Part shown: in pieces, positions 4,131 to 63,266 of the stretch
Numbering within the stretch: the first letter of the stretch is position 1
How the letters are laid out: each line of letters begins with the position of its first letter
NCBI RefSeq assembly: GCF_964656455.1
Contig: NC_135715.1
Span: forward strand, 80,082,414-80,146,413
Origin: Halichoerus grypus
Taxonomy: Eukaryota; Chordata; Mammalia; Carnivora; Phocidae
DNA length: 64,000 bases
Direction: 5' to 3'
Translations under genes and position numbers: made by a program
The notes under the pieces: generated by a model
The model's database searches: none
What the model saw: only the letters and a program-made list of their open reading frames with translations
Told to the model about the DNA's origin: nothing

Positions 4131-5081
4131 ACACACTCTGCCTTTAAGGAACTTAAAGTCTAGAAGGAAGGGTAAACCATGGCACAAACAGCTAAAGTGG
4201 GAATATGATGAATAATAGAGACAAGACAACATGAGGATTCAAAGGAGAGAAAGATTGGGAAGGGGGTGGAGAATTGCTGCATGGAGCCAGGGACCTCTGG
4301 GCCAGGTCTTGGAGGGTGAAAAGAGCTTCAACTGGAGTGAGTAGACAGAGGGAGGAGGGACCTTCTGGGAAGAGAGCTGCTTGTGCAGAGGCACAGAGGG
4401 TGCAGGCTGTCCTGGGGAAGCAGAGTCCCCTCTGGGACTGAGGCCTTCAGTGTGGCACAGGAGGCTGGGGCTTGCCAGCATGGCCTGGCCTGCCTTTCTG
4501 TGCTCCAGGAGGTCAATGGGACCAGGCAGGGAATGTGGCCCACTGGGGATCCCCCTGAGGGCTCAGCAGTGATGGAAGATGGATGTGGAAGCTCTGTGCT
4601 ATGGCTATACCTAAGTTCTCATGGTCCCCATCCCAAGCACTTCTCACCCTTGAAGCCAGGCTCCCCAGTAAAGCTGTTGGGGGCATTTGGCCTGGACCAC
4701 AGCACCCAGTGACCAGCACCCTGAAGAGAGAATGAGGGATAGACTCAGTGATGGGAATACATGTCCATTTTCTCAACCTATATGACTTTATTTTACCTCA
4801 CCCCAAAGAATTGCAGATAGAAATCTGTACAAGCCAAGGTCCAGGCTCTGAAAGAAATGTGGGTATTCCCCAAAAGAAGCATGTCATAAAACTGAGCACA
4901 TGCTCCAGGCCTGGTGGCCCCTCAGACACCCACTCCTTCCTACCAGGAGTGAGCAGATTAACCTGGTTGTGTTCTCTATGGAGAAGGCACTCCTACAGAT
5001 GGCCACCGCAGCATCCTGTGTGACTCAGTGTCTCCCCAGGCTGGGCCAGCTCCCTCCTGCACACACACTGCCATCTGTCAC

Positions 5082-5273
5082 CTGGAGGAGCAGGGACAGC
5101 TCCCACTCCAGGTCTTCGATCCTCTGAGCCAGGTGGGCTCTTCTCACTCCCAGCATCAGGGTCTGCTCACTCCTCAGGGCCCAGGGCCCGGGATTCTCTC
5201 CGTCTGGGCCACTTGCCTCTGCTGGATAGGGTCTGTCTTCCTGCCACACACAAGGGAAGATGCTGGGAACCTC
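5082..5273 (-). CDS. E43: last recognised exon, coiled-coil tail
   Basis: 192 bases, phase 0 to phase 0; acceptor gtgtctttttcag, donor ctccagGTgaca. The first half is Pro/Gly-rich (E-N-P-G-P-W). The second half is a helix with [19 protein letters not shown]. It ends at a donor, not a stop, so at least one more exon lies to the left. None could be recognised in 1-5081. Confidence 0.8.
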
Positions 5274-11200: not shown

Positions 11201-14200
11201 TCCATTTATTTTTATAATATAAAAAATTTCAATGTCCTTGTTTCCTCATATTTGCCTGTATTTAAATTTTTTTCCCCTTAGAGAGATTCTTAGGATTGGA
11301 GATACTGAGTGGACTGAATATTTTAGAGACTTTTTGACACAAAGTGCCAGATTGCTTTCCAGCAAGGTTTTAAATTTTTATTCTCAATCTGCTGGATGTG
11401 GGAGTGTCTATCTCTTTCATCCTCACAAATACTTAGTATTTTAGTTAACTGTTTTAGGTAGATATAAAAGGGCATCTAGTCTGATTAACATTTCTCAGAT
11501 TCTTGAACATTTTTCATATAATTTTACATGTTGGTATTTCCTTTCTCTTAGGGCCATTTACATATTTTTTTCTCATAGAGCAAAAGTATCTGTTGATGGT
11601 AAATTTGACCTAGAGAATCCTGTTTTATATTATTATGTGATCATACCCACTTTTGCTTTCCTTCAGGATTTTTTTTCATTGTTTTGAAGATTCTTTTAAA
11701 CCTTCACAGGCTCCCACCTCTTGCCCTTATGGATATTATAGATGTAGGGGCCAGGGACAGCTCCCCACCAAGACCAGCCATCTTGGCATGGAGATTATGC
11801 CAAATTTAAAACAATCAAGGCCCAAAAGACTTGACCTTCCCCCACAACCACCTAAAATAATTTAGGTAGAGGACCCGCTGCAGGAAGAGAGCTGTCACCA
11901 TAGAAAACTACCCTGTAATATGAACTAGGTGTGGTGGACAGGGAGGAATGCAGCAAGGCCTGTTACATCAAAGTCCTCTCTATGTCCTCTTGTTTCTGGA
12001 TGACCCAGCAAACATTTGTTGACCAAATATTTACTCTTTTTCTTCTTCCTGTGGATTCCATTTCTTCCTTTGAATTCCCTATCCCCTTCTCCTTAGTTCA
12101 GGATATACCTTATTTTGTCTGACTGATTTTAGAATCTCATGTCTGTGTGGATTCTCCATATGAATGAAATTAAATTTGATTTTCTCCTGTTAATCTGTCT
12201 CATGTCAATTTAATTCTTGGTCCAGCTAGAAGAATCTTGAAGGACATAGAAAAAAATGATTTCCTCCCGTACGTAGATAATCAGTGAACACTTAATGAGT
12301 GATTTTCTTGACCAATATTCTCCAATCCTAATTTCTTTTTCCACAAAATATCCCTCCCAGTCATGTTTTCTCCACCCCTGTGATTTCTGAGCCCCAGAGT
12401 CACATACAGTGTGTAGGTAACAAGCAGGGCTGAAAGATGGGACAGCTGAACAGCTCAGAATCCTTGGAGGAGGCAGAGGCCCATAGCACTTCCTGAGGTG
12501 AAGAGAACCTTGGTCACAGAGTCAGACTCCTACCTGCAGCTCAGGAAAGGCTCCGTGCCTGTGTCCAGCCCTGAGGATCCACAACCTAGAACCTGGGCTC
12601 ATGGTATCTCCTCCTTTGGTGGCACACTGAGGCAGCTGTCCAGGTCCCAGGTCCTGCTGGGAGCTGGGAAAAGGGAATGAGAGACATCCTTTCAGGCCTC
12701 TGCTATCTAGTAGTACATCTCCCCAACCAGAAAAAGAACATATTGGCCACTTTTAACTCCTCCCTGAGGTGTCTGGGGTTAGAGAAGGATGAGATTATTA
12801 ACATGACAGAGAAACTGACAGATATGCATAGATTCCCTGAAACTGCACCCACACAGCCATCCCTGCCTCAGCAGGTGAATGAATTCTCAGTAATGGGTAC
12901 AGAATATGCCATCCAAAAATATGCCAACTTGGCATATTGATTATTTTGAGCTGAAGGCAACTGAGAAGAAGCAGATATAAGGCAAGCTCTCTGCCCTCAC
13001 CCTATTTACCTGAAAGCAGGACATACATTTTAAAGGTGCACTCCTCCCTTCTGTAGGAAGGACAGGAGTTAATCACTGAGACAACTCTAGATGCTTATCA
13101 GCCTGGAGATGGCAACAAAGGAATTTACACAAAAACCTTGCTAAAACTAGCCCTTATTCTCCACTAGTTCCCCCATATATTTACCTTCTCACAATTTGAT
13201 GCCCTAGAAACTCAAAGACCTTTTCTTTTGTCTTGTCACCTCTCTAAAAATTTACTGTTCTTTTGTTAAGATGCTGTGTAAGCCTTAGTTCTAAGGACCC
13301 TTCCTTTACATTTCACTGAATGCTTTCATGTGTATGTGCCATGTGCATGTTAATGAACTTCTATTTGTTCTTTCTTTTGTTGATCTTTTGTCAGCCAAGA
13401 ATCTAAGATGGGTAGAGGAAAGGAATTCCAGCCCCCCATATCAGGCTAGCCATGCCCTGTGTGGTTTGTATCCCTTAGGGCCTCCCCAAATGGTTCTCCT
13501 TCTGGGGTCTAGTAACTGCTCTGTGCCCTTACCCTTCAGGGTTGGGAGGGGGAGATGTTGGCCCAGTACAACTTGCCCCAAGGTACTGTGCTAGCCTTTG
13601 TGGGTACATGTACCTGCCCACACCTTTATATGTCTTCCTTTATTATATTCCCTTCAAATTTTCCATCTAGAAATTGCAAGCTGCTTCCTGCTGGGATCCT
13701 CATCAGTAATACTGTTCAGACTCCCTTTGAGAAACTCAAGTCTTGATCTCAGTTTCTGCCCCTTGAAATGAGAGAGTTGGACAGTCTTCAGTGAGCCTTT
13801 GGGCCTCGGGACTGGTCTCAGTTCATGAGCCATACCTGAACTTTCTCACCTCCATGTCTTTGTCAACACAGTTCCCCTCTAGGAACACCCTTCCCCAATG
13901 TCTCTTCCAGTTAGGACCCTACTCTTATTTTAAATTTATTTCAGAGGATACCACCATCACAAAATCTTTCCTGATCCTTGCAGACATCTTTAAGTTTCTA
14001 GAGCCTTTTATTACAATCATTTGTTCTTCCTGACTCCTTCAGCTCTGTATTAAAGACAGCAATAAATATCTGCTGAGTGAAATTATCCTCAGGTTGTAGC
14101 TCATGACACTGGCTAGGGAGTGTTTGCTCAAAATGCACAACTTTCAGAGCAGAGCCCAGTCTAGAATCCAGGTCTCTGGATTCTAAATGTCAGAGAGGAA

Positions 14201-17200
14201 GAATTTCCTCTGCCCTTCAAAATCCTTCTAGTTGGACTAAATCAAATTGACATAACACAGATTAACAGGAGAAAATCAAATTTAGTTTCATATGTATGGG
14301 GAATCCACATGGATGTGAGATTCCAAAGACAGGGAAAATGAGGTGTATATATCATCCTGAACTAAGGAGAAGGGGTAAGGGTCTGGGACTTCAAAGAGGA
14401 AGAAAGTAATTCACAGGAAGAATGAGAGTAAATGTTTAGTAAACAAATGTTTTCTGGGCCCACAGAAACAATGAGACATAGAAGACTTTGACCAAACAGG
14501 CCTTGCTAGTTTCCTCCCTGTCTACCATACCTACTTCATATTACAATGTAGTTTTCTATGGTGACAGCTCTCTTCCTGGAGCAGATCCTCTACCCAAATT
14601 CTTTTAGGCAGTAGAGGGAAGGTAAAGAGCTTTTCATGAGTCTGCTGGGTTTTGATAGCTTCTAACTCAAAATAATCTTCATGCCAGAGTTGCCCATCTT
14701 TGGGGGGGGCTGCCCTTGGCCTCTACACTAACTTGTCTTTGTGTGATCCCCTTTTCTGGAGTCCCTGATCCTCCAGGAACCCAGGCCTGGTGACTTTAGC
14801 AGGAGAGTCTAGATTCCTCTCCCCTTGCTCACAGGAGACTTTAATTGTATACGTTTTCTAGGCACCCTAAACAAGGAAACCTATGGAAGAAATGTTTCTG
14901 GGAGGAAGGACTGTTGTAGCTTTGGTGGAGGGATTAATGGGGAGGTTAGTGCAGGGTGGGCTCTGAGACTCCCTGAGCTGATATCCCAGCTGCATCATAT
15001 AACTTAGCCTCTTTGAACAATGGAGCTAGCAATAGTATCTACTTTATAGGGTTATTGTGAGGATTAATTTAGAGAGCAGATAAAGTGTTTACCTCAAATC
15101 CAGTACATACAAAGCATTCGATATGACTATTACCACTTGCTATTATTAAAGGGGGATGAAGGGAGGAATAGATCATACATAAGTGCATGAAGAGAAATCA
15201 AGTCAACAAAGCAAACAGATCCATCTCAGCCTCTTGGTCGACTTGGAGGAAAAACAAGTCAACCATGTGGCTACGTCTTGGAGGAGACCGTGTATCACAA
15301 GAAGGAGAGTTGGAAGGAGGTGGGATGGAGTCTGGTGAAGTCCGGAGTCAGCCAGAGTGAATGTGGCCTTTTTCCCAGGCGGGGGGCAAACCCAGTAAAT
15401 GACATGAGTTCTGATGAGTTACTCAAACCAGCGAACCCCTTGGTAAACCAAGGTAGCCAGGACAATGGGTGAATTACTATGGGCAAAGCATCCCAAAGCC
15501 TTCAGCTGGATTTGAGTGGGTTAAGGCTCAAGTTCTGGTTATGAAAAATAAGATTCTCTGTGATGAGGGAACAGAAGGCTGGCTGAAGACAGCATAAGCT
15601 GACACCCTGCAACCTCCCCCCCACCCCCTACTCCTGGGTGGGACGCGTGTGACATTCTTCCAGGAATCTCCCAACTATCTTAATGTTAATGCCTTACCAG
15701 AGGGGTAAACAACCTTAACTTGACAATGGCAAGGCTTCCATTATCTTGTAGGTCCTCTTTAGCATATGAAAGTTCTTTCCAAACCTCCCCTTTTCCTTAC
15801 CTCCACCAACTCCCAAGTATATAATCAGCCACCCCTCACACCCCCGTGCAGCAGCTCTTTCTGCCCATGGGTCCTGTCCCTGTGCTTTAAAAAATCACCT
15901 TTTGCACCAAAGACATCTCAAGAATTCTTTCTTGGCTGCCGGCTTCAAACCCTAATGTTCTTTCCTACATCATCAGTACTAAGGACCACAACCAAAGAAC
16001 ACAGCTGCTGTGTGCAAGACTTGGTGCTGATACCTGCCCCCACCTTGTACTTTGGTGCTCCTCATCCAAGGGTAGAGGCTGTGGCTTCAGGGGCATGTTA
16101 CTTGCCAGGTGAGAGTCTTGTTGACAGGTAGGGAGAGGCTGTTCACCAACCAGACCAGAGGCCTTGGAATAACAGACAGTCTTGTAACTTTCCTTCAGTT
16201 TTGGGCCCAGAAAAGAACAAGGGCATCATTGCTGAACCAACATGGGCACCTGCACTGATCTGAGCTTGGGATTCTGTGTCTTGGTGTGGCCAGGCCACTG
16301 ACTGCCTAGTGCTCCTGGGGGCCCCAAGTGCCTACTCAGTAGCAGATAAGACCTGATATGTGTCATGGTCTCCTTTTCTATGCCCCCACAGGCACTTTGG
16401 GAACAACCGTGGCTGTGACGGATTCTGCCCTATTGCACCGGGGATGTACCAGGCAGGGACTCCTGAACAGAGGCCCTCTGAGTCTTTCTTCCCTTTGACA
16501 TGCTGCCCTCAGGGTAGGATCCATGAATTGTGCTTCCCTTCTGAGCTCTGTGTAAGAGGCCAGATCATCAAGGGCACTGGGGAGATTGTCTCTGACATAC
16601 AACTTGGAGAAGATAAAGAGCTGAAAACAGGGGTTAACCTATGAGCACAGGCAGTACACCCTGGGTTTCGGAATAGAATGCAGGGCCACCTGAAGAGTGT
16701 GAGGCCCAAGTGTGTATGTGTGTGTGGTATATGTACATGTGTGTGTATGCATGAGTGTGGTGTTCTCTGTGTGTGAATGTGCACATATGTGTGGTGTGTA
16801 CATGCATGAAAGTGTGCATGCATGCATGTGCGTGTGTTTGTGTGTGTGCACGTGTGCACACCAAATGAGTCTCCACAAGGTTGGGGTGACAATGAAGCTG
16901 TCTGCATACACAGGTACACTCTATCACCCTGGGGGGTTTTCACCTTTCTGCTGGCCCCAGCTGGTTGCGCACATGCATGAGAAAGTGCTGACGCCAGGGC
17001 CACAATCACTCTGTCCAGCTCTGGCTGAAAGCCCAGGGGTGAGACACTGGCGGTGCAGCCTGGGGAAGGAGAGCACAGAGAACAGCCTCAGACACAGTCA
17101 CCTCATCTGACCACAGATGCCCCACCTCACATTTACTTGACTTTTTCCCATTTTTGAAGCCTTGTTGGTGAGCCTCTTGCCTTTTTATTCCACTTCTACC

Positions 17201-20173
17201 TCTATCCCAGAACCCGCTTCCATCTCTCTCCTTCCTTCAAGCAGTCTCTCCAATGTGTTAAATATAGGTGGCTTGAACCTTAAAGACTGCATCATGGCTT
17301 TTTATGTGTGGATAGTTACATTTTTATACATGATCTCTTCCCTTCTTATACAACTCCTTCTGTTTCTTCTTTTTTTAAATTCAGAAATGTTTAAAGATCT
17401 ATCTTTTATCTCCATACATAATCTGTTACTTCTGACTGCTTGAACATTTTTGAGGGCTGCATTTTGCTTGCGCCCCCCGCCCCCCCCCCCCCACCAACCA
17501 GGCCAACTTAGAATACCTGCTGCCAAGACCAAGGCTGTGCTGGGGTTCACACCCAGCAGTCTCCAAGAACTGCACTGTGACTTGTTGGAGTACCTACCCA
17601 GAGGGAACCTGGGCTACAGGGTAGTTTTGCCAAAGTATTATTTAATTGCTTTTTTCTTTTTAATTTGCTAAACCTTCATCATGTAATTTTTTGGAAAAAA
17701 GTGCTCCCCATCAAGAAATAATGGAAGCCTCTGCCTTCAGTTAGCAATAGCTAGGAAAGGAATAGGCTTCATTTAGTCTTCTGCTTTCAGCTCCTGTCAG
17801 TGCCCATGGAGAGGAGTTTCAGGACATGAAGTTTTTACAGCTTAGCCCCAGGCCAATTTCAGAGGAAGGTAGCTTTTTTTGGTCCTTTTTCTCATGATCA
17901 CTTGGCCAGATGTCCCAGCCCAGAAGTGTATGGATGAGAAGCTTAAGAAGTGGGAACGGTTTTGAGAGAAGGTCAAGGAAAGCTCTTAACAACATTGCTC
18001 CATCTCCAGGGCTTCACAGACCACACATGCACACAAGTACACATGAACACACACACACCTGTGTGCCAGGCAAGGTTTCTGGCATCTGTCTGACCTGCTC
18101 CCCGACTCCTCTCCCTTAGGGCTTTTGAGGACACATGGCCGTCATCATGGAAAAAGTAAGTGCTTGGATCTCAACCTCAAACACATTCTTCCAGTGACCC
18201 ACTCCTTTCTGGAGAGTGATCTATACTGAAGAACAAGGGGTGAGACCCCAGCCCAGCCTGGCCAGCCTGTCTCCCCAGAAGGGCCAGGGAGCTCAGTGGA
18301 AAGGACTGTGGCTGGGCTCTTGGAAATGGAGCCTGGTGGCTGGGTGGTGGGCCCTTGAAGTCTAGTGAGGTGCGTTCCTTCATGCCCTTTCAGCTAGAGG
18401 CAGCAGAGCTGTGTAAGGGCTACATGGTGGAGGTTGGGCTTCTGGCTAGCCCCACTCTGTCACTCTCCATGTAATATGGTGGGCTTTTTAGCCTCTTGAA
18501 GACACTGTTCCCTCATCTATAAAATGATGGTAATGCCACTCACAGATTTCCTGTGAGAATTGAATGGGCTAAATGAGATAGTGCTTGCCCAGTGTTTACA
18601 ACAGCCTTCAGGGCTGTGGAGGAGAGCGTTTGGAGAAGCTGGGGTCCCAGAGCCCCCAGAGCTCCAGGCAGCTGTGCAAAGGTGGGTGGGAGCCCCCAGA
18701 ACCCCAGGCAGCTGTGCACAGGAGGGCGGGGGGCATGCTCCCTTCTTTGGTCAGATGACCCATGTGTGCAGATCTCCTGGGGATGCTCCTTGGCCCCCTC
18801 TTGATGCTGACAGGACAGCATCCTGGCTTGGTATCCAATGGCTGAGGCAGGCCTCTGGGAGCCATCCTATAAGGAGCCTTCCATCAAATGTTCTAAATGC
18901 TGAGTTAAGGGAGGGGCTTATTTTTCTGATTAGACTGAATAGACAGAATAGATAGCTACCTGATGAGATGCCGCCATATTATGGGCTGTTTTAATTCTTT
19001 TTCCAGCCCAAATTAGAGGCTAAAAAAAGTTTTCTTTCTCTAAATAACTCCTTTAACATGAAGAAATTTAAGGAAGCATTAAGCCAGGCAAGCATTGTCT
19101 ACTAGCCTTAAGAATCATGTGTTTCCCCTCTAAAGTGGGTGAGTGAGCTGTCCTCCCCCTACCATCCTTACAACACACCCGGGGATGTTTCGAGAACACA
19201 GGGTGTGCCCTTCGGGACCTATGGGAATAAACAAAGAATCCATCAAGTTGATTCTCATTACTATGACTTGATGTTGTCCTGAGGGGCATAATGTAAATTC
19301 TGCAGGTTTAGCTTAAAAATGGCTATGTTAGGCCAGAACCAGGAGACCCTTTCTTCTTGGATCTGAGTTTTCTTCCCTTGTGAAGAGGCAAACACAAATT
19401 CTCTGAACTTCTCTAAAGGCACTTGCTGACCAGGTGGGCTTGGGAGTCTTAGCGGTTTCACAGAATAGCTGCAGGAGGGCCTAGGCTGGGAGGGCCAGTG
19501 GGATTCTGATTTAAGGGGAGCTTCTGGGGGCAAGTCCTATTACTAGATTCCTTCTAGGCAGTGGCTTCAATACTATACTTAAGAATCACAACGTACACTA
19601 AGAAATTAAATGTTCATATATTCCTCCATATAAGTATGCATAAAACTGCAAGAAGAGTTTTATGAAGCCATATTACTTTTTATACATGTGTTGCTTCTGG
19701 TAGTTTTGATTTATTCTTTTCTAGGTTTTTTTTTTTTTTAATGCTTGTTGCAACTTATTAAACTGATTTATAGTAAACTACAATCTGCAGTTTGAAAACT
19801 GCTCCAGGAGATGGAAAGTCAGCTGATTTTCAATGAGATACCAACTCACACCTGTCAGAATGGCTAAAATTAAATACACAAGAAAAAACAGGGGTTGGCA
19901 GGGATGTAGAGAAAGGGGAACCCTCTTGCACTGTTGGTGGGAATGCAAACTGGTGCAGTCACTCTGGAGAACAGTTTGGAGGTTCCTCAAAAAGTTAAAA
20001 ATCAATCTGGCAATTGCACTACTAGGTATTTAGTAAAAGGATACAAAAATTTGAATTTGAAAGATTTGAAGGGGTACATGCACCCCGATGTTTATAGTAG
20101 CATTATCAACAATAGCCAAACTATGGAGAGAGCCCAAATGTCCATTGACTGATGAATGAATAAAGAAGATGTC

Positions 20174-20234
<61 letters not shown>

Positions 20235-23200
20235 GGAATATTACTCAGCCATCAAAAAGAATGAAATCTTGCCATTTGCAATGATGTGGATGGAGCTAGA
20301 GTGTATTATGCTAAGTGAAATGAGTCAGTCAGAGAAAGACAAATTCCATATGATCCCATTCATATGTGGAATTTAAGAAAGAAAACAAATGAACATATGG
20401 GAAGGAGGAAAAGAAAAAAAAGGAGAGAGGGAAACAAGCCATAAGTGACTCTTAATGCTAGAAAACTGAGGGTTGATGGAGGGAAGTGGGTGGGCTAGAT
20501 GGGTGATGGGTATTAAAGAGGGCACTTGTTGTGATGAGCATTGGGTGTTGTATATAAGTGATGAATCACTGAATTCTACTCCAGAAACCAATATGGCACT
20601 GTATATTAACTAATAAAATTTAAATAAAAGAAAAAAAAAGGAAGTCGGCTGGTTTTATGCTGAGGTCTGGATTCAGATGTGGATAACTTGCCCCAACAAG
20701 CTTGGGTTTTCCTGCCTTGAGGTTGGGCCTTCACAGAGCATGCTTTGGGGCTGGGAAGTCCTTGCCGAGCCCATGAGTGCTTGTTCCAGGAAGCACACAG
20801 CCTTCTCCAGTGTCCATGGCTCCTGGCATGGGAGTGAACACTAGCCTGTTTCTAGAGTGGAGGAGAAGGCTTGCATACTCTCTACAAGCATGCAGCCAGG
20901 CCAGTGAGAACTGCGGGTAAGGCTGCTGGTATGAGTTGCTGGCTGAGTTCTCCTGCCTGGGGACACAGTCTTGCAGAGAGCAGCCTGGTGGCCCCCCTCC
21001 CACCCCTGACTGGCGTCCACTGGACATTCACAGCGAGGGAGAGGGGCCAGGAGCAAAGGGGACAACAACCCTTACCACTTAACAACATGGAAGCAGGGTT
21101 ACCCATCATGGCAACTAGAGCTGTGCTTTATTCAGTGGCCCAAACACAGGGACATCAGGGCCATTCAGGGGTAGCTTGGAGACTGCACACCCAGAGCTGC
21201 CATCTGCCAGACCCACCCAGGACGATGCTCAGTTTTGGGCTCTCTAATACCTGAGTGTGGCTGTAAGTCAGAGCATGTAGGGGGACCCAGGGATGTCCCT
21301 CCACACCCTGTCCCTGTTCCATCATAAGCCCTGCCTAACACATCCTTCTTTACAGTGAAGCTCAACATCCAGGTCCTAAAGGAAGAAGCCTTTACCACCT
21401 GGAAAAGGTGAGACTCTACCAGGTGGCAGGAGTATTTCAGAGTATAGGCTGTTGTGGGAAGGGCTTCCACAGAGTCCACAAAAGAGCAAATAAATATTCA
21501 CATACAGACCTGTGAGGCTGCTGGGATTTGGGGTCAAGTGGACTTTCGCTTTCCATTATTTACTCTTTTGTACTGATGGAACTTTTCTAAGGAGCATGTA
21601 TTGCTTTTGTCCTTTAGAAAAACAAAACTAAAGGTTTAAACTAAGGAGACTGTCAAGAGCCTTAGGGCCCTTGTCCCCCTGATATCCTACACAAGGACAG
21701 GCCTTAAAACACAATGGTGGGTGTGGCCAGCAGGAGGGCTGGGGCAAACACCGCTCTGCCATGTGTTATCTGGGTCTCCCTCCCGCTCTGGCAAATCATG
21801 TCCCTCCCTGGGCCCAGGACCATCTTCTGTGATCAGGGTCGATGCTGTCCAGTTATGACAGGGGTTCGGAGCACCCAGTGAGATGATAAATATGAGATGC
21901 CCAGTTAGGTGCTATACAAAGTTAGAGTTACTATTATGACTTTCCACCTGCCATCATAGTCCCACCCCTGGGCACCTGCCTCTCACCTAGAGGACGCTGC
22001 CAGTGCTCCCTGGGTGAAGATGCAGTGTGGCGGCCCCAAGATTCCTCACTCTGCCCAGTGTCTGTTCTGGCAGCAGCTTTGACCTCCATCTCTGGGTCTC
22101 CAGCTCTGGCCAGAACTTGCTGCTCAACTGTGCTGAGGTTCTGCAGAATGTCCTGGGAAAACCAGGGCTGTGTCACTCTCTCGGTCATGAGTGTTCTTCT
22201 TGGTTCAGGCAATTTCCAGAAGTGGGTGAGGGGGGGCCCCCGTTCCCTGGGAGGGTGGGGATGATGGTGGCTTGGTTGTCTGGGAATTGCAGCTGACCTT
22301 GAGGCCCTGGAGCTGCTGGCTGGCGCCCCTGTAGAAGGCCAGTGCATCCCTCCTATGCTTGCTCAGCTGGGCCGCCATGTGCAGGCTCTGGTCCTCGAGC
22401 TTGTCGTAGAGAGTACGGATGCTGAAGTCCTCCAGGGTCTTCACAGGGAGTGGCTCTCCTGCAGGAAGAGGGCTTGGCATGAGCCTGTGGGATGGAGGAG
22501 GAAGCAGAGCCTGGTGGGCCTGTGGGTGCGGGCTCTACAGCTCTCTCCTTCCCTCTGGGGTTTAGCAGGCAGGTATGCAAGGACTGAGGGGAGCAGAGAA
22601 AGCATGCACGGGGGGGTGGGGTGGGGGGGGTGGGGGTTGGTTAGTGCTGGCAGGAAGGGCAGGGGTTAGGCTTGACGGGAGCTGGAGGAGGCGGGAGACC
22701 TTCCCAGCAGCAGGTAGCAGCGGCTGTGGAGAGAACCTCTTCTGTGTGGGTGTGACAGACAAGGCGCCCTACAGCCTCTGTCCATTGGGCCTGGTGTCAC
22801 ATCAGAGTTGGGTGGTGGGCACTGCCTCCCTGCTTTGCTGAGGGTGGGTCTCCCTGGCCTCGACAAGATGGCAGCCTCCTGAGGAGGCTGTTTGCTGGGT
22901 CCTGCAGGCCACGTCCGGCTGAGTAACCTCTGCCCCCCTTCCCCCTGCCTGAGTTCATCTCACTGTCCTCATGTCCCCATAACCACTCTGTGCTCACCTT
23001 CAACAGCTCTTGCCCCACCTGTCCCCACTGCTCTGTGGACTCCTGTTCAGCCTCAGGTGTCCCACAGTGCCTAGCGGACAGCAGAGGCTCACTAAGTACT
23101 TGTCTGCCTGAGGTGCCTCCTCTAGGCTTCAGGGCTAGAACCCCAGTGGGGTTCTCGCACTCCCTGTAGGAGCGTCCCTTGGCCGAGGCTCTTAAACCCC

Positions 23201-26200
23201 TTGACCTCCTTCTCCCTCAAACCCACTCTGCTCTGCTAGGACACATGTGAGTGAAGGGGGCACCTTTCCAACTGTCTTTCCCTGTGGAGCCAGGTCTTGC
23301 AGGAAGGAGGAAGAAAGAAGGAAGGTGGTGTGAGGGCCCGCGCTGGCCTAGGGCTTGCTGAGAGAGTGGCCTGCAGGAGTGTGAACATGGAGCTGAGTGA
23401 GTGTCCACTGCCAACCCTACACTACTCTTTCCCAGGCCTGATGGGTGCAAGAGGGGAGAGGGCAGTCTCATTCATGCTGGCAAAGTGAGGCAGGAGTTCT
23501 CGTTCAGGGTAACAAACCTGGGCCCGGCCCCTGCACAGCCAGCTTTGCCTTCCTTTCCTTTCTTTGTAGCCCAGGTGGGGTCTGTCCCTGAGCTACCAGC
23601 TGTTCAGGTGGGAAGGGGGTGGGAAAGCAGCTTTTCAGATTAGAGAGCTCTCGCTTCAAGCCCAGCAGCACCGACTCTCTAAAAATTGCCACTTGGGGAT
23701 CTCAGGGAAGCCACTCACATTTCCTTGAGCCTCAGTCTCTTTGTCTATAAAATGGGGATGGTACAACACCTGAAAACACCCACTTCTACGTGTTTGATTG
23801 TGATGGTCAGATGGACAGCATGAAGTGTCTTATAAATCATCAATGCTGTAGAAATATGAGATATTATCTAGAGTGTGTACCTGGGGTGCAGGTTTGGGTG
23901 GAGGGCAGGAGAAGAGGAGAAGGAGGGTTGTTGCACACAAGTGTGGTACCTGTGCCCCAGGTAATGGCTTTCTCCTTGGAATCAGCTCCTTCCCCAGAGC
24001 CCCGAGGACTAAGGTCTTCATGGGACAGAAGGCTGGAAAGAAGCACCCACACTCAGGTGGCATAGGGCTCACATGGACCGGGAGTGCCAGTGATGAACAT
24101 CACAGGTCAGCGTAGGAAGGCATTCTTTCCTGAGTCTCCAGGGCCAGGACTGGGGTCATGAGTGTGGGCAGGGCCAGGGTGGGGATGGCCATGGCCCCTA
24201 GGCCGGGAAAGGAGTGAAGGGTAGAAGGGGACTCACCTGTCTCTGAGGGGCACACACTCAGTGGGCACATGAGGCTCTCCAAGACCCCTCCACTGGGGCC
24301 TCCAAGCCCTCGCAGGGCAGGCCTGGGCCAGCGGGGGTCTCAGTACGAGGCCGAGTCCTGTCAGCAGCATGGTTGCTAAGCCAATAGCCAGTAGCACTCC
24401 TGCAAGGTCAGGGGAGAGGGGCAGGGGCCACGTGATGACGACCACTCAGAGCATCTGCAGGCTTTATGCCTCAGCCACTGCAGGGCCGCCTTCTCTCTGC
24501 CCTCCTGAGCAGGGGGCCATGACAGACCCACTGTCTGAGGCTCAGCCTGGAAAGCTCAGTGAGATTACTTAAAGACAAGCAAGAAAGAAGATGGATGGAA
24601 AGCTCACGGAGAAGGTTAGAAGAGGTATCTCTGTGAGCCTATGACTCTACTCAGGGGCCCCTATTCACCATGAGACCCTGTTCATAAGGACAGGTCCCAA
24701 AACTGAGGGGCTTGGGAGGCAGGGAGAAAGGGGACCCCAAGAAGGAAATACAATTTTCTTTACCTGGCAAATGAAGCCCTAGTTCAGGGACAAGGTGGTC
24801 CTCATGCCCATCTGTAGTCTTTGGGGCTATGCCCAGAATAACAGATAGGCCTGGACACACACTTGAAGGTCCTGCTGGGCAAGGCTTCTCCCATTCCCCC
24901 CTCTAGGTCCTGGCTACTCTGGTCAAGGGTCAGTACCTGTGATCACTACCCAGTCTGGGCCCAGGTTTGGCAGCCTGTGCCTGAGGACCCCGTGCCTGGT
25001 AAGCTGATATGGGGAGGAGGGCTGTACGGGGGATAGACCGGGATCGCAGGCCACTCCTTTCTTCTTCACCAACACCACGATGATGCTTTCAGGCAGCCCG
25101 TTGTCTCGAAACACATATGTGCCTGGATCTAGGAACTGGTGGGCAAACCTGGGGGATAAAGGGCCAAAATATGGGGAGAGTCAGCTTTGCTGAGCTGTTC
25201 ATACCAGGCTAACTGTGAGTGACTTTGACCTGTGGCAGGACCCCTCCCCATGCACAGAAATAATGTGGCCCAAGGAAGCTGTCCATGACTCCCAAACCCC
25301 TCCCCTCCATGTACTCAGGAGGCCTCACCTGCCCTTGGTCTCTTCTGGCCTTACCTCCCACATGGTTGGCAGCTTCCCATACTCCTCTGGTCCTCCTGGT
25401 GCCTCCCCAGCTGTGACCTACACGTGAGGAACCATGGGCCCTCCAAGTTCCCAGGCAGCTTAGCTGAGATTACCTTGAGAAGTTGAGATGAGTCTCTTGT
25501 ACCAGGTGGCTGAGTCTCCTGAAAGCCCCAAAGTCCCAGCGGGGGTTGCTGTTGAACAGATGCTGCATCTGGTACACAGGATAGTGACTGGCTGAGCGAT
25601 CTGGAGAATGAACCAGGGGTGGGGCTGGCTTCCGGGGCCTTCTCAGCCCCAGCCCTGGGCACCTCACTTCCTGGCAGCTCAGTGTCTGTCCTCAGGAGAG
25701 TGAGCAAACTGAGAAGACATGTTTTCAATGAAATGACATGTTTTATCCTTTAATGTATATAATAAGAATGCATTTAATAACCTTGGTGCCAGGGCAAGAC
25801 CCTTTTCCCCCGCAGCCTGCGAAGTGAGCGCACCAGCACATTGTGGAAACACTGTGAACAGAGGTCCCCAAGCCCCCATGCCCTTCGTGGGAGACCACAG
25901 CTAGATGCCCTGGCACTCTCAGAGGTGGGACCTGTTCAACTTTGTAGCCCTGACAAGCAGCGTGCACGGAGCGGGCATGCAGCAGGCACTCAATACGTGC
26001 TGTGGGATGGCTGAGAGAATGAGCAGCTACGGGGGTAGACGGGGAGTCCGGCAGAAACAGGCAGGCCGAGCCAGGCCATTCCTTCTGCACAGGAGGTCTT
26101 TCCCATGCACAGGTGTCAGTTCTTCCCAAGCACTCCCTTCCCCCCGGAAAGATGGGGCTCTGATCTCACCTCCCCCGCTGTGTGGAGAAGGGGGAATGCA

Positions 26201-29200
26201 ACGGCGTTCACTCCACACATGGAAATACCAAGGCTTAGAAAGGACAGAGGTTGCCCAGATGCCAGTGGATTTATGGGAGACCTGGCCTGGAAACCAGGGC
26301 ACAAATGTCTGGAGTTCCTCTTCCAGGATTTATTTCCCCCTTTGATGCTCATCGCCTCAGCACTGCTTTGTGGGGAGGACCTTTGGTAGTTTCGTGGCAC
26401 GTGAAACCAAACACTTCATCTCTTTCTACCTGGGCCAAGGCATCATTCTTCTGTTTAAATCAGGTTAAAAGCATGGCTGTGCCACACACCCAGTGCAGCA
26501 TAAATTCCAGATACCAGAGACTGATGTCTTCAGCATTGCCTGAGGGAGCACCTTAATCTTTGAACCTTTATTGTGTCCTTTGTACAGGGCATTATCTGTA
26601 CTAATTTGTTGTGGTTATAAAACAATTAGCAAAACAGCTTATATTTGCATTTCTTTTCTTTTTTTTTCTTTTTTCTTTTTTTTTTGTTGAAGATTTTATT
26701 TATTTGAGAGAGAGAGAATGAGAGATAGAGAGAGAGCATGAGAGGGGGGAGGGTCAGAGGGAGAAGCAGACTCCCCACTGAGCAGGGAGCCTGATGCGGG
26801 ACTCGATCCCGGGACTCCAGGATCATGACCTCAGCCGAAGGCAGTCGCTTAACCAACTGAGCCACCCAGGGGCCCTGCATTTATTTTCTATTCCATACCG
26901 CTCTGCCCCTTGTTTTTTCTCCTCAAAATCCATTCCTTAAAAAAAAAAAAATCTGTTGGAGAAAATAAAAAAAGCCAGCCTGGGGCTGGCTGCTCTCTTG
27001 CCTCTCTCATGTCTTTCAAGCTGCAGACCTGTCCCTGTCTCAGCCCAGCCATTTAGTGTCCTGGGGCGTCTTAGTGGGATAGCACTGTACCATCTGTCAT
27101 CTGTGTGTGAGCAGGTGGGCTGGGTGTCTGGGGAATGCCCATCCTTTCCAGAGCAGCGCCCTGGGGAAGTACCAGGCAGGGGAAGGGGAGGAAATTAAGG
27201 TCTACCGAGGGCCCAGACCATGCTCAATGCATGGGAGGTGGCACTGAGCCCAGAGGGGATGAGACCCTCTTCTATCAGTAAAGGCTGTCTCAGCGAGGAA
27301 AACTCCGTCTTGTTCTCTGAGGTTCCCAGGGATGGGAGTCACAGGGAGACAGGCTTCTGCTCATTGCAAGGAAAACAATTCTTATAAACCAAGGCATCTG
27401 AAGATGTCGGGGGCTGCCAGGAGGGGTTGAGGAGTCTGCCAAGGGGGGGCTTCAGGCCCTGGACGGATGACTGTGTGACACAGAACAGACACGCGGGAGG
27501 GCTGGCTTAGACCAGAAGTCACTGGGTGAGTCTCTGCCTCCACCAAGGCACAGCAGTCTGACCCTCCTGGGCTACAGGGAAGAGGTGCAGAATGTTGGAG
27601 CCGGAACATCTGCTCCGAGAAGCGAAGGGAGGCCCACAGTGAAGTGACCAATCAGGCTGAGAGCAGGCAGACAGCATAGACCTGTGACTTGCTACTTCAA
27701 AGGTGTGGTCTGTATGTGATGTCACTGGATAGCCAGGCAGGGGAGGGATGAGAGAGCCAGGGCCAGAGGGAGGGTCCAAGGTCCTGAAGTAGGGAACTTA
27801 CTGTGGGGAAGAATATGAAGCTGGAAAAGAATCACATCCCCCTCTACCAGGCAGACCACTGGATTTGGAATATAGGGATGGATGCGGGGGTCATGAGGGG
27901 CAGAGTGCTCCGGTCCCGTAGTCCAATGGTGCCTTTGCAGCCAGGGTGTGGATACAGGTGGTCCTGGGAGAGTTTGGGGAAGGAAAGCTGAGGGAGCTGG
28001 GCTTGTCTGGAGATGTACACACACTCACCTACTGGCCCTATCCTGTCTCGGTTCCCTTTTAAGAGTAGTTTCAGCCCTTCTGGGGCCCTCGCCTCCCCAA
28101 GGACATGGCCTTCCATGGTCCCTGCCAGACTCTCACCTCCTGAGCACCAATACAGGGCTGAAAAACTTCTGAGGGACCACAGGTGGGGTCCCCAGCTTCC
28201 CATCCCTTGCTAGAAGAAGGCAGCCATGCCCCTCACCCTCCCACTCTCTGGGAAAGCCTGGGCTTGGTCCTCCTCCACTTACCAAGGAGGAAGGAGCCAA
28301 GCATGTCCACTCTGGAGACGACAAAGCCAAAGATGCCATGGGGGCCACATTGGACCAGATGGACCCTGGCGTTCCCTTGGAAGAACTGGTCTGGACCCAG
28401 AGTGCTCACTACTTCCTGAGAACATGCAGCACAGCATTATATACCAGGGGAGGACAGGAGGTGCGGAGAGCCTTGCAATGATGGATGGCCAGAAACCCAG
28501 ACTGAGCCCTTTAGCACAGCCCCTGGTGATGCTGGGTTCAAGGATGCCCATTGTCAACCTCCATCAGGGCATGTCTCCTATCTCGCTGAAACTTGCCCAG
28601 GTGGTCTCCTATGCCCTGGGCTCCTCCTTATCTCCAGAACACACCCCTGACTCCATTCTGATCCTTGTACTGGGTCATTGTTTGCTCCTTTTCTCTCTAC
28701 TTGCAAAATCCTACTAACAGAACAACTTCTTCAGAACACTTATCTTCCTATCACCCCAGATCTGCTCTCCAGTGCCACATCAGTGATCCTCCCTCCCCTT
28801 TCAATGGCAAACAGACAGCCACCTAGAACCTTCTGGTAGGCAAACATCCAGGGTGAGCCAGACCTGCTCTGCGTCCAAGCCCTGGTCCTCTGCCCCTTGG
28901 ACCCTGATGAAACGCCGACGCCCTGAAGAAAGCCACAGCCCACATCATGGTGGCCAAGAGAGGGCTCTGCTCTCTGACCAGAGGTCTGGGCTGGGATGAG
29001 AGGCTCAGGCTCAGTTCCAGCAGGGCTCACACCATTTTTGTCACCATAGTGAGTGCGTTCATGCCCCTGGGCCTCACTTCACACTTATGCAAAGCCAAGC
29101 TGATGCTTTCTCAGCTCCCTTCTGGCATTCAAACCAGATGATTGACATTAGCATCAAAAGAAATACCACTTATTACTTCCATTCTGCCTTTTCCTCCAGC

Positions 29201-32200
29201 CTACAGAATGGAAATTCATGCAGATAGCAACAGACTAGGAAAGACTGGTTATCAAATGCACTTTTCCTTCTGCTGCCTGGTTTCTGCCATCAGAGTGCCT
29301 GGGAGGCTCTTTCTCCCTTGTCCTCAGCCGACAGAGGCTGCCCTTCCAACCCAGCCCTTCCCTGAGCTGGGCTTACCCTCTGGTCGCTGTCTCCCACCTC
29401 ACTCTTCACACTGAGGATCAGCTCCCTGCTGGAACCCCAGGCCAGGGAAAGTTGGGGGGCCCTGGCCAGACACTGGGCATCACAGAGCTCTTCTGCTGAG
29501 ACATACGCCTGGCACTGGCAGCTGTGGGAGAGGAGAATATGGGAGGTCTGGCCTGGTGGGCGTGGAGCCGCTGCCCACTCCTGACACCCCTATGCTAGTA
29601 CAGGTCCCTTCAGAAGGATATGAGGTGTCTATGCTTCCTAAGAAGTGACTGCACTTTGAATGGAGGTCCATGATGACTCATTCAAATGCACTCTCTTAGC
29701 CCCTGCTTCTGTACCAGCCTGAGCATCTCCCAAAATGGGAGCAGGGCTTGGGACAAATCCTAGTTGAGAGGCTCAGAATTTTTGTTTTGGGTGCCCTGCT
29801 GAGGCAAGAGTGAGGAGAGAGAATGTTGTTCAGCCTGGAATACTCTATTCAGCGGACCTCCCAGCACAGTGGCTCCCCAGCCCTGCCTGCTGGGGGAGAC
29901 TCTGTTCAGTCCACAAGTCAAGTGGAAGACTGGAGTGTCAGATAAAATTGGAATCCTTCTTGGCTTGGCATCTAGTCAGGGTCACTCCTAGCAGTTGGCT
30001 CAGGGACCTGGGGTGTTGAGCTCACTCTGCCTTGCTGCAGCACCTCCTCAGCTCTGGGTTGCCTGATCTGGCTGGTGTTGGCCTAGCTCCCCCTCTTGGG
30101 AAATGCTGACAGGGCAGCTTCTGGAAGGGCTTGTATTTGGCTCAGTCTCCCATCAGGGCTGGATCCTGCCCAACTCTTCTGGGCTCTCTAGGGACAGTTA
30201 GGACCAGTCAGATGATGGTGGATTCTTTTTGTTTTCAGCAGCTTTTCATTACTCACATGCCCAGTTCAGCACTGAGCTCTCCACCCACTGGGTGACAGAA
30301 GGAGGAGCAGTCATGCAGTTGGGGGGACACACACTTGCGCGTGGCAGCCAGGCGAACTTCTCCAGCCCAGCAGCGCTCTGCCACCTGTGGGAGGATATAG
30401 AAGAGTCCTGGCTCTGGCACCCCCTGCTGGCCCAGGCACTCTCAGCATCAGAGAACATTCCAGAGACATGGTGGGGCCTCTGGGGAACCAAGCTCCTCTG
30501 AGAGGTCACTTAGTCAGGGCCCTAAGACTGGGGTTAGGCTTGAGGATAGAGGGAACCCACATAAGTAATAGGAGACAAGTTTGCTGACTAGGGGAGATAG
30601 TTGGGAGGTCTAGCTTTGGGGAGACTGGATCCTTTATAATGAATGCTGAAGTTCTGTGGGTCTATGATAAGGAGAAGTGTGTCTTGCCAGGTGAGCTCTC
30701 TGAGGTCTTCTCATTTGTATAGGAGGTAATCCACCCAGCACAATGGACTGAACATTAACCAGATAGCCAACGAAAAGTGGCTGGCATGCAGAGGGACCCA
30801 AACATGCTACCTCTCCTCACTCTCCTCAAACCTTCCTTTTTTGAGGCCAAGGTGTTACCTGGGGCTGACAGTCCTCATCACTGTTGCTTTCCTCACTTTC
30901 CAGGCCCCTCTTGCTGTAGGACTCATGTCCTGCCTGGCAGATGCAGGAACCATCCGACTTCTGGAAGACCCTGTTCAGGCCCCGACACGTGCAGTGGGAG
31001 GCACCTGGGGATAGAGAAGTCCCATAGTCCATCACAGGCACCTAATACTGAGCCAGAGACATGAGTAAATTCTCTGTCCCTGTCCATAGGGAGTTTGTGA
31101 TCCTGGTGGGCAGATCAGACACCCACCTTTACCAAAGTACTGATCTTAGGAGTCTGTGGGGATTGAATGAGATCTTCTGAGTCAATGACTCTCAACCCTG
31201 ACTTTGCATTAGATTCATCTGAGAAGCTTTTAAAAAATATTGATGTTCAAGTCTTCTTTAGGCAAATTATATAGAAACCTCTGAGGTGAAGCCAGAACAT
31301 CTACTTTTTAAAAGTCCCTTGGGTGCTTTAATGTGTAGCTGTGGCTGAGAATTACTGATGTAGTTGAAAGCACTTGACACCTCATGGAATGGAAAGTGTT
31401 GTTCCTATTCTCTGTCACACAAAGCCATGTGGGGCCAGTCCTCAAGAACTGGCACAGGCCTCTGTCTCTAGACAATAGAGAGAGAGCTGCAGAGACTGAA
31501 GGCCTCTCAAGGAGCTTGAAGGATGATCTGGATTGGATGGACAGAGCCAAGAGAACAAGAATTCTCAGCTGAGAAGAAGGTGATGAGTGGGGAAAGTTCA
31601 GGTATTATTTGGGAGACTGAAGGCATCTAGGTGATTATTCTTCTGGGAGAGCCAGTTGGGGGAGAGGTAGAGATTGGGACCTTGTAGTTGACTAGGGTTC
31701 ACTGCAATTCCAGCTTGTTTGCCCCTGTTGGAACTGTCATCTGCTCAGGGAGAATAAAAAACTCATTTAAAGTTTAGCCCTTGTCTGCTTCCTGCAGATA
31801 ATCACTCACATGTATGGTGTGCACAGTAGCCAAAAGAACTCAGCAGAACTTGTTGAATGGACTGAAAGTTGACATCTTTTGCTAATGTGGTGATATTCTT
31901 TCCTCAAATGAATTTAGGGACCATTAATAAGAGAAATAATTATTTCTACTGTAGAGAAGGAAGGGAATTAATACTGAAGTGACACAGAGAACTCTCATGA
32001 GTCAGGTTCTAGATGGTGAAGCCCTCTCTAATATCCTGAACTCCAGTATATTCTTTGGCTCATCTAGACCAGCTCCCTGCTGAGACCCTGGGACTCTTCC
32101 ATATCTCATTGTCCAGAGCACTGGGCTTCCACCTGGTTCCACAGGGGAGCCTTGGGGACTTCTTGGATAAAGGAGTGACTCAATGGGAGCAGTTGTGAGA

Positions 32201-34378: not shown

Positions 34379-34409
<31 letters not shown>

Positions 34410-43400: not shown

Positions 43401-44425
43401 GGAGGGAGCACTTTGATGGCAGTGCAGGAGGTGAATGACTCGGGGCTATTACTGACCTGCAGTAGCTGCCGGGGTGACAGACGGAGCAGTCACCCTCTTC
43501 CCGGAGGCCTGACACACCTTGGGGAGTGAAGGTCCCTGGAGGACACAGAGGAGGGGACCACGTTCCTGGAGAGGGGGGTTAGCCAGTGAAGATGGGCAGC
43601 TGAGGGCTCAGGTCTTATCCGTGCCTGTGGACCCATCTCCTCCATGCTTGGACTAATTAGTGACGAGGCCCCCCACCCATCAGCATCCTGCTGCCCTCAT
43701 GGCACTGAGTTTTTCCTTTCTGCTTTCTCAGAGCCTTCAAAGTGCTGAAATGGCCATGACTTTAGTCTCTCTCCCTAGGATTATTGTCCCCTTACAAAAG
43801 GGTAACTCCCTAGGGAAGGATTTCCAGGTAGCAGTGAAGCTATCTGGGGGCCAGGGGCTTTAATCTAACCAATAGGCTTGGGGGGGTTGCGCTCTGTGCA
43901 TCAGACACTGGGTTCTCTGGGACTGAGCTGGAACCAGGCCGTCCACACTAAGCACATCTCTCTTGGGAGCTGCCTTCTCCTCCCAGCCACCCCTTCCACA
44001 GTGCCCTGATGCCCGGCCTGGTTGGGTGGGGTGTGCCTGTGTGGTCCCCTCCTCTCCAACTCAGGTCACCCCACAGCCCCATTGCATCAGTGGCCCTTGT
44101 CCTGGGGGCCATCCTCTGGCTTTGCCACCTCAACATTTTCTTGTGCACACGGGCTGTGCTGTATGTGCCAGGCACACCCCAGCGTGCACATCTGGGGTGG
44201 GAAATAAGAGAAGTCCCCCGACAGCGAGAAAATTTAAAGGGAGCAGCTGGATCTACTGAAAAAAACTTTCTGACCAGGAGGGGGAGTGCGAAGCTGAAAG
44301 GTGTGAATTCAGTTAGGGCTGGTTAACATAAGAGTCAGCGCTTCAGCGAGAGTGGTCTGGGGCTATGGGGGGTGGGGCTGGGAAGGCAGAACAGTGCTTC
44401 TCCAGAGACCAGCTGTCTTGTGTGT

Positions 44426-44458
<33 letters not shown>

Positions 44459-59400: not shown

Positions 59401-62400
59401 GCCTGTCTCACTCAGGCGGCAGTCCTCAAGGTGAGCATAAGGTGCTACGTAGCTGCAGCCGCCCTCCAGCCCGCCCTCACTGGGCACCCTCCCTGTGCTC
59501 CCTGCAACCCCCACCATGCACCTGCCGCACGGTGGGGGCGGGTTGCTGCTCCCTCGGAGTTTCCAAAGTCATATGTGCAGCCAACAGGTACGTGCTGGGA
59601 GCCGGCTGTGTGCCAGGCACCATTCCGACTCAGAGTAGTGAGCGAAAGACAGAACTCCCTGGCTTTGTGGTGCTTATATTTTAGTGGGGAATACAGAAAA
59701 TAAATAAGGCCAGCAAGTAAAATACTATGGTAGACTATGATATGCGCTACGGAGAGCCAGGGAAGGCCGTCCTGGGAAAATGACTACAGTCCCCAAGGTA
59801 GGAGGAGCTAGCCAGGTGGCCCTGTTCTCCAATCCCCATTTGACCTCAAGGGCAGTGTGGCTTGCCTAGATCCAAACAGGGCCCTTCCCACACCCAGCCT
59901 CCTCCCAGGCTGGGGTCTCCCTACCTCTGAGCTGAGCTTGATGCGTGCGCTGAAGGTGCCAGGTGGGCAGGGTTGGGGCACGGCTGAACCCCTGGGGCAG
60001 TAGTGTCCCTGAGGACACGGGCCAGCCTCCTCTGGAACCAAGAAACAAGTTAGCCTGGCCCCTGGAAAGCGTGTGGCGAGGAGCGGGGGTACTGTGAAGA
60101 ACTCCCTCTGCGTCCCCGGTACAGGCTCTGGGCCCTGAGATGGCGCTGCGGGTCTCTCCTGCGGGTCACACCCTCCGCACCTGGTTACTCCACCATAGCC
60201 CTGGGTTGCTGTTACAGAAGGGAAGAGACCGGGGAAGCTGTTCCTGACATGGGGTGGTGGCATCTGGAAGGGGCTCTTGAAGGAGGCAGGGCACCTGAGG
60301 GAGGCAGGGCCTCTCTGGAAGGCTCAAGCCCCGGGGTCTAGGGGGTGGACGGACAGCGTTTGAGACTGAGGCAGGCTTTCCATCACCATCCCAGCTCTTG
60401 CTGTAGAGGCCTTTGCAGACCTTCCCATGCTGGTTGGTATTTTTACGTTTTTCCTAGTTTCTGGAGATGCCTAGCTGTGTCTTCTCTCCTCTCCCTCGAC
60501 CCCCATGGGCCCTGTTCCAAGAGGCCTGCCACCAGGGCTGCTTGGTGACTGAGGATGGGAACCAGCCAGTTCTGGGCTGTTGCTGCACAGACAGGGCTAT
60601 TGTAGCCGGCAGGTCAGGACTGGAGGGATGAGCTGTGCATCAGACAGTGTCCTCACCAGTGTCCAGGCCTCCCTGAGGATGGTATGACCCTCAGGGCCCG
60701 AGGACAGCTGCAGAATGGCAGAAAGCTGGACTGGGGTCAGTGCGCCCGGGCGCTCAAATTGGCTACTGACTATGTGCCTTAGGCAAAGCACACTGTCTTC
60801 CTGAGCCTCAGTTTCCCTTCTGACAGAGACAGGGATTGTACTGGATCATGGGATTTTGCCCCATGGTCCCTGAATTCCAAAAAGGACTTGAGCCCCAGAA
60901 GATTAAAACCACTGGAATGATCCCTCAGCTATACAATGAGAACTACTTGGGAGGGTTAACATATTGACCATACCTGGGCTGGGCCCCACCCTCAGTACTC
61001 TGATCTGATGGCCTGGCCCTCCCACCACCCCCATATCAGTTTGTGCCAAGTGACTCAAATGCATGGCTCAGCTGAAGAGTACTTTTCAATGACCCTTAAG
61101 GTGAGTTTCCTCAGGTCTGCCTTGTGGGCCCTCAGCCTCGCTTGTGTGGGATATAGGAGTTCTTGGGGTGTCCCGCCCAGAAGGGATAGTAGGTAGTGGA
61201 GACAAATGCCAAAGCACTGTTCATGCTGGGCACCAGTGTCCTGCTGTCCCATGAATGAGAGCCCAGGAACACAGGTGGCCCAGGTCAGGTACCCCAGTTC
61301 TCTTGGACGGAATAGACTCATCAGTCTCTCTGGTTGACAGAGTGGATGGAAGGCTCTGAATCTGTCCCCTACCTCCCAGTTGGGGGGCTTAGGAAACGGA
61401 GCAGGGGATCAGTGTCCAGCAGGGAGGGCCTCGTACCTTCAGTACCGGCCTCTGGGTTGGGCCGGGTGGACCCTCTGGAGCAGAAGAAGCCTTCCCAGCA
61501 CTGTCCACCGGCCTCTGTAGCATTGGCCCTGGGGCAGAACCTGCCCCTATCACAGGCTTGACATCCTGGCAGGCTACTCAGTCCCAGCACGGGGCCATAG
61601 GTGCCTGGGGGGCAGGGCTGCCAGTCAAGCCCTGTCCCTTCAGGGCAGTAGAAACCTGTGAAGGGATCAGGGCCGAGATTAGAACCTGAGGAAGCAGGGG
61701 ATGGGGAGGAAGGTGGCAGAGGGCAGGCTCTGGGCGCTGGGCTAGAGTCCAGCATGGAAGCCTGGCATCTCTGCCGTGGGGCTCCTGCCCAGGAAATAGA
61801 AATGCTCTGTAAATCCGGAATTACCACCTTATTATCCGAATACATAGCCCAGGCCTTTGAGGGAAGTGGGGGCAGATAACAGGCATGTTAACTGCTCTGC
61901 CCACCCCTCCCTTTTGCTTTGGACGCTTTGCTTAGTCAGCCAGGCCACTGGCAGGACACTGACCTCTTGGACACAGCTGCGGCCTCAGCCCTGGAACACA
62001 GTAGCGGCCACTGGGACAGACGTAACATCTTGTTGTGTGGGTGCCGGAGGCGTAAGAGCCAGGAGGGCAGGGAGTGGGGTCAGCCATTTCCAGAGGACAG
62101 AAGTGCCCAGGGGGACAGGAGCTCCCAGAGAGCCCCTCCATGGCGGTGGTAGGGACAGTTCCTCCAGTGCAGGAAACGCTGGAAAAATGTGGGGGAAGTC
62201 GCTGAGGAGCACACAGCCACGGAGTGTGGGTGGACTTTAAGCATGGGCCTGGGACCCTTCCTAGCCGGTTCCTTCTTGAATCCTGGCATGACTTAACCTC
62301 TGCATGTCTGCTAGTGGCCCAAGGCCCCACAGGCCAGTGGGGGTGGCACCTTGTTGACTATAGGGATTTCTTCCCCTTGTTCTCTGGCTGGGTCTGGATC

Positions 62401-63266: not shown

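Follow-up and report, generated by a model that had tools for sequence, protein, structure and literature searches.

An intact gene for a giant Cys-rich membrane-anchored protein, unnamed or misnamed in databases, in the seal Halichoerus grypus

Do the many Cys-rich open frames on contig NC_135715.1 of the seal Halichoerus grypus (assembly GCF_964656455.1) belong to one intact gene, and what kind of protein does that gene encode? Analysis of 64,000 nucleotides of this contig (positions 80,082,414 to 80,146,413 of the forward strand, here called the window) confirms that the larger part of such a gene lies here, real and intact; its giant, Cys-rich, membrane-anchored protein goes unnamed or misnamed in databases. 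All coordinates below are those of the window, and are continued into the DNA past its end where the gene runs on.

The gene and its reading frame

Open frames that are rich in Cys and carry repeat motifs are concentrated on the minus strand, the strand of the gene. Homology-free exon chaining from splice-site and codon scores, at a penalty of −6, joins 42 minus-strand exons in the window with a score of 199.8, versus 24.4 for the plus strand, 2.2 for the reversed sequence and 5.6 for the complemented sequence. At a penalty of −8, the minus strand scores 126.0 versus 6.2 (plus), 0.0 (reversed) and −0.3 (complemented). A plus-strand gene was rejected on this control, and the minus strand is a correction to the initial annotation. 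Refinement of the chain under the guidance of 22 related proteins, by which two exon ends were trimmed and the last exon was lengthened to the stop codon, gives 45 coding exons in the window (7,115 bases, 2,370 residues) with no internal stop. All 45 have AG acceptors, and GT is found at every exon that has a donor. The initial annotation, which had counted 43 exons and 2,250 codons without a stop and argued from the intact frame against a pseudogene, was thus correct about the frame and low in its counts; with all 45 exons open between standard borders, a pseudogene in the seal is rejected.

The same annotation held the gene to be incomplete at both ends, which is true of the 5′ end, located outside the window (signal-peptide exon at about 91049–91107), and not of the 3′ end, marked by a stop codon at 5025–5027. 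Past the window, the model continues through 24 more exons (about 1,081 residues), 22 of which have at least 75% homology support; the exons at 86396–86421 and 69900–69927 have none. The N-terminal exons at 82–89 kb align over short stretches with bird N termini at 26–46% identity, and their exon structure is approximate. A database protein that covers the C-terminal part (P0180) matches 11 places in the seal genome, and because all of them fall in the window, no second gene copy is seen.

Within the window, the Cys-rich repeat region spans 1,582 residues (10.6% Cys), in agreement with the initial estimate of about 1,570 residues of GCC2/GCC3 modules, and the separate juxtamembrane part, single membrane helix and coiled-coil-like tail described with it are all present in the refined protein (Table 1). 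The juxtamembrane part consists of a Cys-rich neck, whose signature C.C.G.NR.F recurs in 68 of the first 120 relatives, including protists, and a membrane-proximal domain with a cupredoxin-like fold, according to Foldseek and a structure model of the toad orthologue; a second structure model is poor over this part. The cytosolic tail, predicted to be helical in a structure prediction of a relative, includes a conserved helix, here named LYDKLED after its motif.

Names and domains in the databases

A protein-database search finds the gene already catalogued. The seal entry is the uncharacterized LOC118538874 (P0175), which shares 1,227 of its 1,278 residues exactly with the window protein, and P0180 is identical to the joined protein over 543 of 543 residues. 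The best full-length match (83% identity) is a ferret protein labelled SCO-spondin, whereas felid, bird and fish copies are labelled zonadhesin-like, and further relatives Notch-like or MEGF6-like. Rodent entries are named Predicted gene 9195 (Peromyscus; by its name, mouse Gm9195) and LOC102554611 (rat), and two fish entries si:ch211-286b4.4. In sum, the database models of this orthologue group are fragmentary or misnamed, and the initial statement that the gene has no recognised mammalian name must be qualified: it is annotated as LOC118538874 and Predicted gene 9195, several copies carry wrong names, and none has been studied as far as we searched.

Zonadhesin is built of MAM and VWD domains, and SCO-spondin of TSP1, VWD and LDL-receptor A domains. 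Pfam scans of P0001 (E up to 1) and of P0175 and P0003 (E up to 0.1) give PF07699 alone; P0016 has, in addition to PF07699, two below-cut-off matches (DUF6079 and Cnn_1N), and an ncbifam scan gave no match. Because PF07699 is all that Pfam sees above cut-off, the four database names are wrong: SCO-spondin is rejected for want of TSP, VWD and LDL-receptor domains, zonadhesin for want of MAM or VWD domains, and MEGF6 and Notch-like on the same scans. A search of the seal genome (2.4 Gb) with PF07699 gave 16 matches, none of them at the LOC118538874 locus, and the PF07699 model therefore misses the gene exon by exon. Most of exon 25474–25600, which is intact in the seal, has been swapped for sequence of the following intron in the database models of ferret and otter (region 25354–25600). 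A rabbit olfactory-receptor entry (P0259) also contains the LYDKLED region, and P0210 carries a spindle-attachment name; both names look like annotation errors.

A search of the open-licence literature, which leaves out most subscription journals, found no paper for ch211-286b4.4, LOC102554611 or LOC118538874. For Gm9195 it found one passing mention, in a chromatin table that lists the gene as not hair-cell-enriched (PMC12528612). The orthologue group comprising Gm9195, LOC118538874, LOC102554611 and si:ch211-286b4.4 thus seems to be unstudied within the literature searched.

Table 1. Coding exons and protein parts in the window, from N- to C-terminus
Feature	Position	Strand	Evidence
GCC2/GCC3-type Cys-rich repeats, 29 coding exons, about 1,582 residues	38174..63266	minus	exon chain and homology, joined without stop
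Repeat exons 1–8	63162-63266, 62470-62611, 61964-62178, 61437-61685, 59925-60031, 58637-58790, 58347-58446, 57731-57897	minus	
Repeat exons 9–16	57359-57532, 56715-56870, 54538-54658, 53927-54120, 52571-52795, 51487-51636, 50797-50900, 49513-49724	minus	
Repeat exons 17–24	48486-48706, 47292-47438, 46509-46673, 45907-46058, 45448-45616, 43457-43565, 41760-41896, 41109-41234	minus	
Repeat exons 25–29	40829-40999, 40507-40731, 40076-40202, 39035-39234, 38174-38386	minus	
Cys-rich neck, first exon	30859..31004	minus	exon chain; signature C.C.G.NR.F
Cys-rich neck, second part	30257..30384	minus	exon chain
Cys-rich neck, third part	29377..29521	minus	exon chain
Cupredoxin-like domain, start	28283..28415	minus	exon chain; fold from toad orthologue
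Cupredoxin-like domain, continued	27802..27963	minus	exon chain, alignment
Cupredoxin-like domain, exon with longest conserved stretch	25474..25600	minus	exon chain, alignment
Cupredoxin-like domain, end, to start of membrane helix	24937..25148	minus	exon chain, alignment
Membrane helix and first cytosolic residues	24237..24399	minus	exon chain, database-protein identity
Cytosolic linker	23950..24032	minus	exon chain; P0175
Conserved cytosolic helix (LYDKLED region)	22298..22458	minus	exon chain; profile match iE 5e-25
Cytosolic linker	21987..22152	minus	exon chain
Helix that trails zincin-like core in non-mammals	16944..17059	minus	profile and alignment
Cytosolic linker	16044..16162	minus	exon chain; P0175
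Cytosolic linker	12534..12663	minus	exon chain; P0175
Coiled-coil-like helix	7014..7151	minus	exon chain; profile match iE 1e-8
Last coding exon: coiled-coil-like helix and stop codon	5025..5273	minus	P0180 identical letter for letter

The sole Rfam match in the window, tRNA-like (33.7 bits; 41549–41621, minus), lies in the intron between exons 41760–41896 and 41109–41234 and is perhaps a short interspersed nuclear element (SINE). Upstream of the gene, at about 99–137 kb, are open frames that by eye resemble LINE-1, and no neighbouring gene was recognised in the flanking exon predictions, which were inspected by eye with no database search.

Relatives from protists to mammals

The gene is not restricted to mammals: fish, sea stars and numerous single-celled organisms have it too. 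A search with a protist relative gives 59 proteins including the query, many of them unnamed; the named ones come from oomycetes, Ochromonas, Blepharisma, Kipferlia, ANDGO (which we take to be Andalucia), Nk52 (presumably Chromosphaera), a tunicate, a crinoid, a mollusc and vertebrates. The seal orthologue group has the order Cys-rich neck, cupredoxin-like domain, membrane helix and LYDKLED region, and the order of C-terminal parts is common to jakobid, fornicate, oomycete, ciliate, ichthyosporean and invertebrate proteins. When an iterated profile was built from neck, cupredoxin-like domain and membrane helix, 221 of the 259 fetched proteins matched it at E 1e-8, and in 171 of these the match covers more than 60% of the profile; the scores are 494 bits for the jakobid, 458 for the fornicate, 422 for the ciliate and 679 for seal P0175 (positions 1–504). 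Two stretches, YPVYxKDSLxNTNPxFDYGxFRxL and FAxTFxxxGxYVF, are conserved in most of a 53-protein set. This retention of neck and membrane helix from protists to mammals, together with the absence of VWD, TSP, MAM and LDL-receptor domains from the scans, argues against a shed ectodomain that, in the manner of SCO-spondin or zonadhesin, acts as a filament of matrix or mucus. This reading, which the automatic labels of the ferret, cat, bird and fish entries suggest, we regard as improbable.

In a tree of 53 hand-picked rows, five of them long and the root arbitrary, 29 of the 50 inner branches pass the support threshold and 9 forks stay open. Seal and ferret pair (100/100) and are joined by chicken, frog, eel (92/59) and shark, with echinoderms and tunicate outside; vertebrates, echinoderms and tunicate group together at 100/99. 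The jakobid groups with the fornicate (93/85) and the oomycetes with each other (100/99), and one ichthyosporean copy stands beside the animals (100/99), the second standing apart. The Nk52 genome carries two copies, P0138 and P0153, of which P0153 alone is adjacent to animals. Distribution and tree fit descent from the last eukaryotic common ancestor, and transfer between some lineages may have occurred. No human protein is among the 120 listed of 1,339, the 59 listed or the 86 listed rows, which is not proof of loss because the searches were limited by length and shared words. The tamarin (Saguinus oedipus) model P0237 has its membrane-helix exon in a different frame from other mammals, a hint of either decay in some primates or a poor gene model.

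The cytosolic part differs between mammals and their relatives. An alpha/beta, zincin-like domain is found in 102 of the 259 fetched proteins, including those of jakobid, fornicate, oomycete and ichthyosporean, and in 70 of the 101 proteins from outside mammals that extend to the LYDKLED helix; among the other 31, 27 end within 280 residues and 4 run for 336–652 residues without it. None of 48 proteins classed as mammalian by name has the domain, and 19 of the 40 mammalian proteins that reach LYDKLED keep, 100–151 residues downstream, the helix that elsewhere trails it. In the seal locus, the tail profile detects the LYDKLED helix (independent E value, iE, 5e-25), two coiled-coil exons (1e-8 and 2e-4) and the trailing helix (0.82). 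Nothing better than chance was found there for the zincin-like core (profile positions 255–343), including the interval 16944..21987; the sensitivity of this search is limited because the kept neighbouring helix itself scored just iE 0.82, and a strongly diverged remnant could have been overlooked. HExxH is present at the motif columns in 0 of 101 proteins with letters there (HxxxH in 30), and P0169 has HExxH elsewhere within the domain. For want of HExxH at these columns, in which it differs from selecase (a minigluzincin, M. jannaschii), the domain is expected to be a zincin-like fold without activity. Many bird models (among them P0011, P0015, P0197 and P0198) end about 220–250 residues past LYDKLED, before the domain, which is present in chicken, guineafowl and turkey models; the endings represent either model truncation or loss in some birds.

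The lack of the cytosolic domain in mammalian models and in the seal locus, the tamarin frame and the lists without a human protein would also suit a gene that is decaying in mammals and whose seal copy yields no working protein. Against such decay stand the 45 open seal exons and the ferret, horse, rodent, lemur and marsupial models, which hold the same C-terminal parts, and we give it very little credence.

A putative surface rod

MST1, the mastigoneme protein of Chlamydomonas, likewise has a long GCC2/GCC3-type Cys-rich rod and is the top structural and PDB sequence match to the seal protein. In MST1, 678 residues of such modules form a 26-nm rod, and the protein builds ciliary hairs (PMC11015965). 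Scaled from MST1, the seal rod would measure about 102 nm. The sequence match is confined to the repeats, and MST1 was rejected as an orthologue. MST1 also has features of its own, namely N-terminal Ig-like domains, a C-terminal polyproline helix and polymerisation; the polyproline helix is not found in the window protein, which ends in a membrane helix and helical tail. ELAPOR1, which has Ephrin_rec_like modules and one membrane helix, is the next structural match; it is far shorter, and 130–133 residues align at a root-mean-square deviation over 20. Comparison supports rod-like repeats, as it does the cupredoxin-like fold. That fold is the one of plastocyanin and other blue copper proteins, in which Cys and His copper ligands follow a G-x-Y-x-F strand. 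By this motif the ligands are not conserved here: in the 53-protein set there is no conserved Cys or His in the ten positions after YVF, and the conserved Cys lies farther on, past the last strand of the domain.

The best reading of the protein, to which we assign a probability of about 0.5, is a surface tether or hair whose rod extends outward from the plasma membrane and whose coiled-coil tail reaches the cell cortex, most likely on a cilium or protrusion. It rests on the MST1 rod, the membrane anchor and the way of life of the carriers, most of which, where named, are ciliated organisms. Whereas the gene, its frame, the order of its parts and their wide conservation are established, the rod length, tether function and ciliary place are inferred. 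The full product is a single-pass membrane protein of about 3,450 residues, comprising a signal peptide, about 2,660 residues of GCC2/GCC3 modules, neck, cupredoxin-like domain, helix and tail. The modules would stack into a thin rod of about 100 nm that projects from the plasma membrane and carries mechanical or adhesive contacts; the neck and the copper-less cupredoxin-like domain would hold the rod and might bind a partner; and the tail would tie the protein to the cortex, the likeliest location being a cilium or other sensory or motile protrusion.

The seal protein and the Eph receptors share a short stretch of Cys-rich module, the CxCR end of which aligns with the end of the seal repeat region. 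Ephrins, too, have the cupredoxin fold (PMC6993872), and the LYDKLED helix is strongly conserved across 36 aligned vertebrate proteins. These likenesses would suit an Eph-type contact receptor, with a tail that signals and with a rod and cupredoxin-like domain that bind to a partner on a different cell. In agreement with the initial judgement that the protein is not an Eph receptor, Pfam scans show no kinase, SAM, fn3 or ephrin-binding domain, and we consider a receptor of this type unlikely. At E values up to 1, the profile of A1 picked up no ephrin chain; by fold a chain of the EphA4–ephrinB2 complex appears at Foldseek rank 28 (E 0.23, probability 0.21). The same paper considers it probable that ephrins descend from a cupredoxin no longer able to bind copper, and describes Ephrin_rec_like as a domain of ancient eukaryotic origin (PMC6993872). 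A protein in which the two folds are already united is a candidate source, but no sequence evidence ties it to ephrins. A still broader proposal, and a long shot, is that the last eukaryotic common ancestor already had this giant surface protein, so far undescribed, with Eph-type Cys-rich modules, a cupredoxin-like domain of ephrin fold without copper and a zincin-like cytosolic domain without activity, and that it forms hair-like rods on cilia or other protrusions. Mammals would have retained the rod and dropped the cytosolic domain, and the gene would have been lost in some primates, perhaps including humans. With its two extracellular folds in a single chain, the protein would then be a candidate source of the Eph/ephrin pair.

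The wrong labels "zonadhesin-like" and "SCO-spondin", spread across many genomes, will mislead expression studies, and the protein itself, membrane-anchored, over 3,000 residues long and with relatives as far apart as jakobids and seals, is left nameless. If the surface tether is indeed a ciliary or sensory hair, mammals would hold an unnoticed counterpart of the algal mastigonemes, and the mammalian loss of the cytosolic domain would be a natural experiment.
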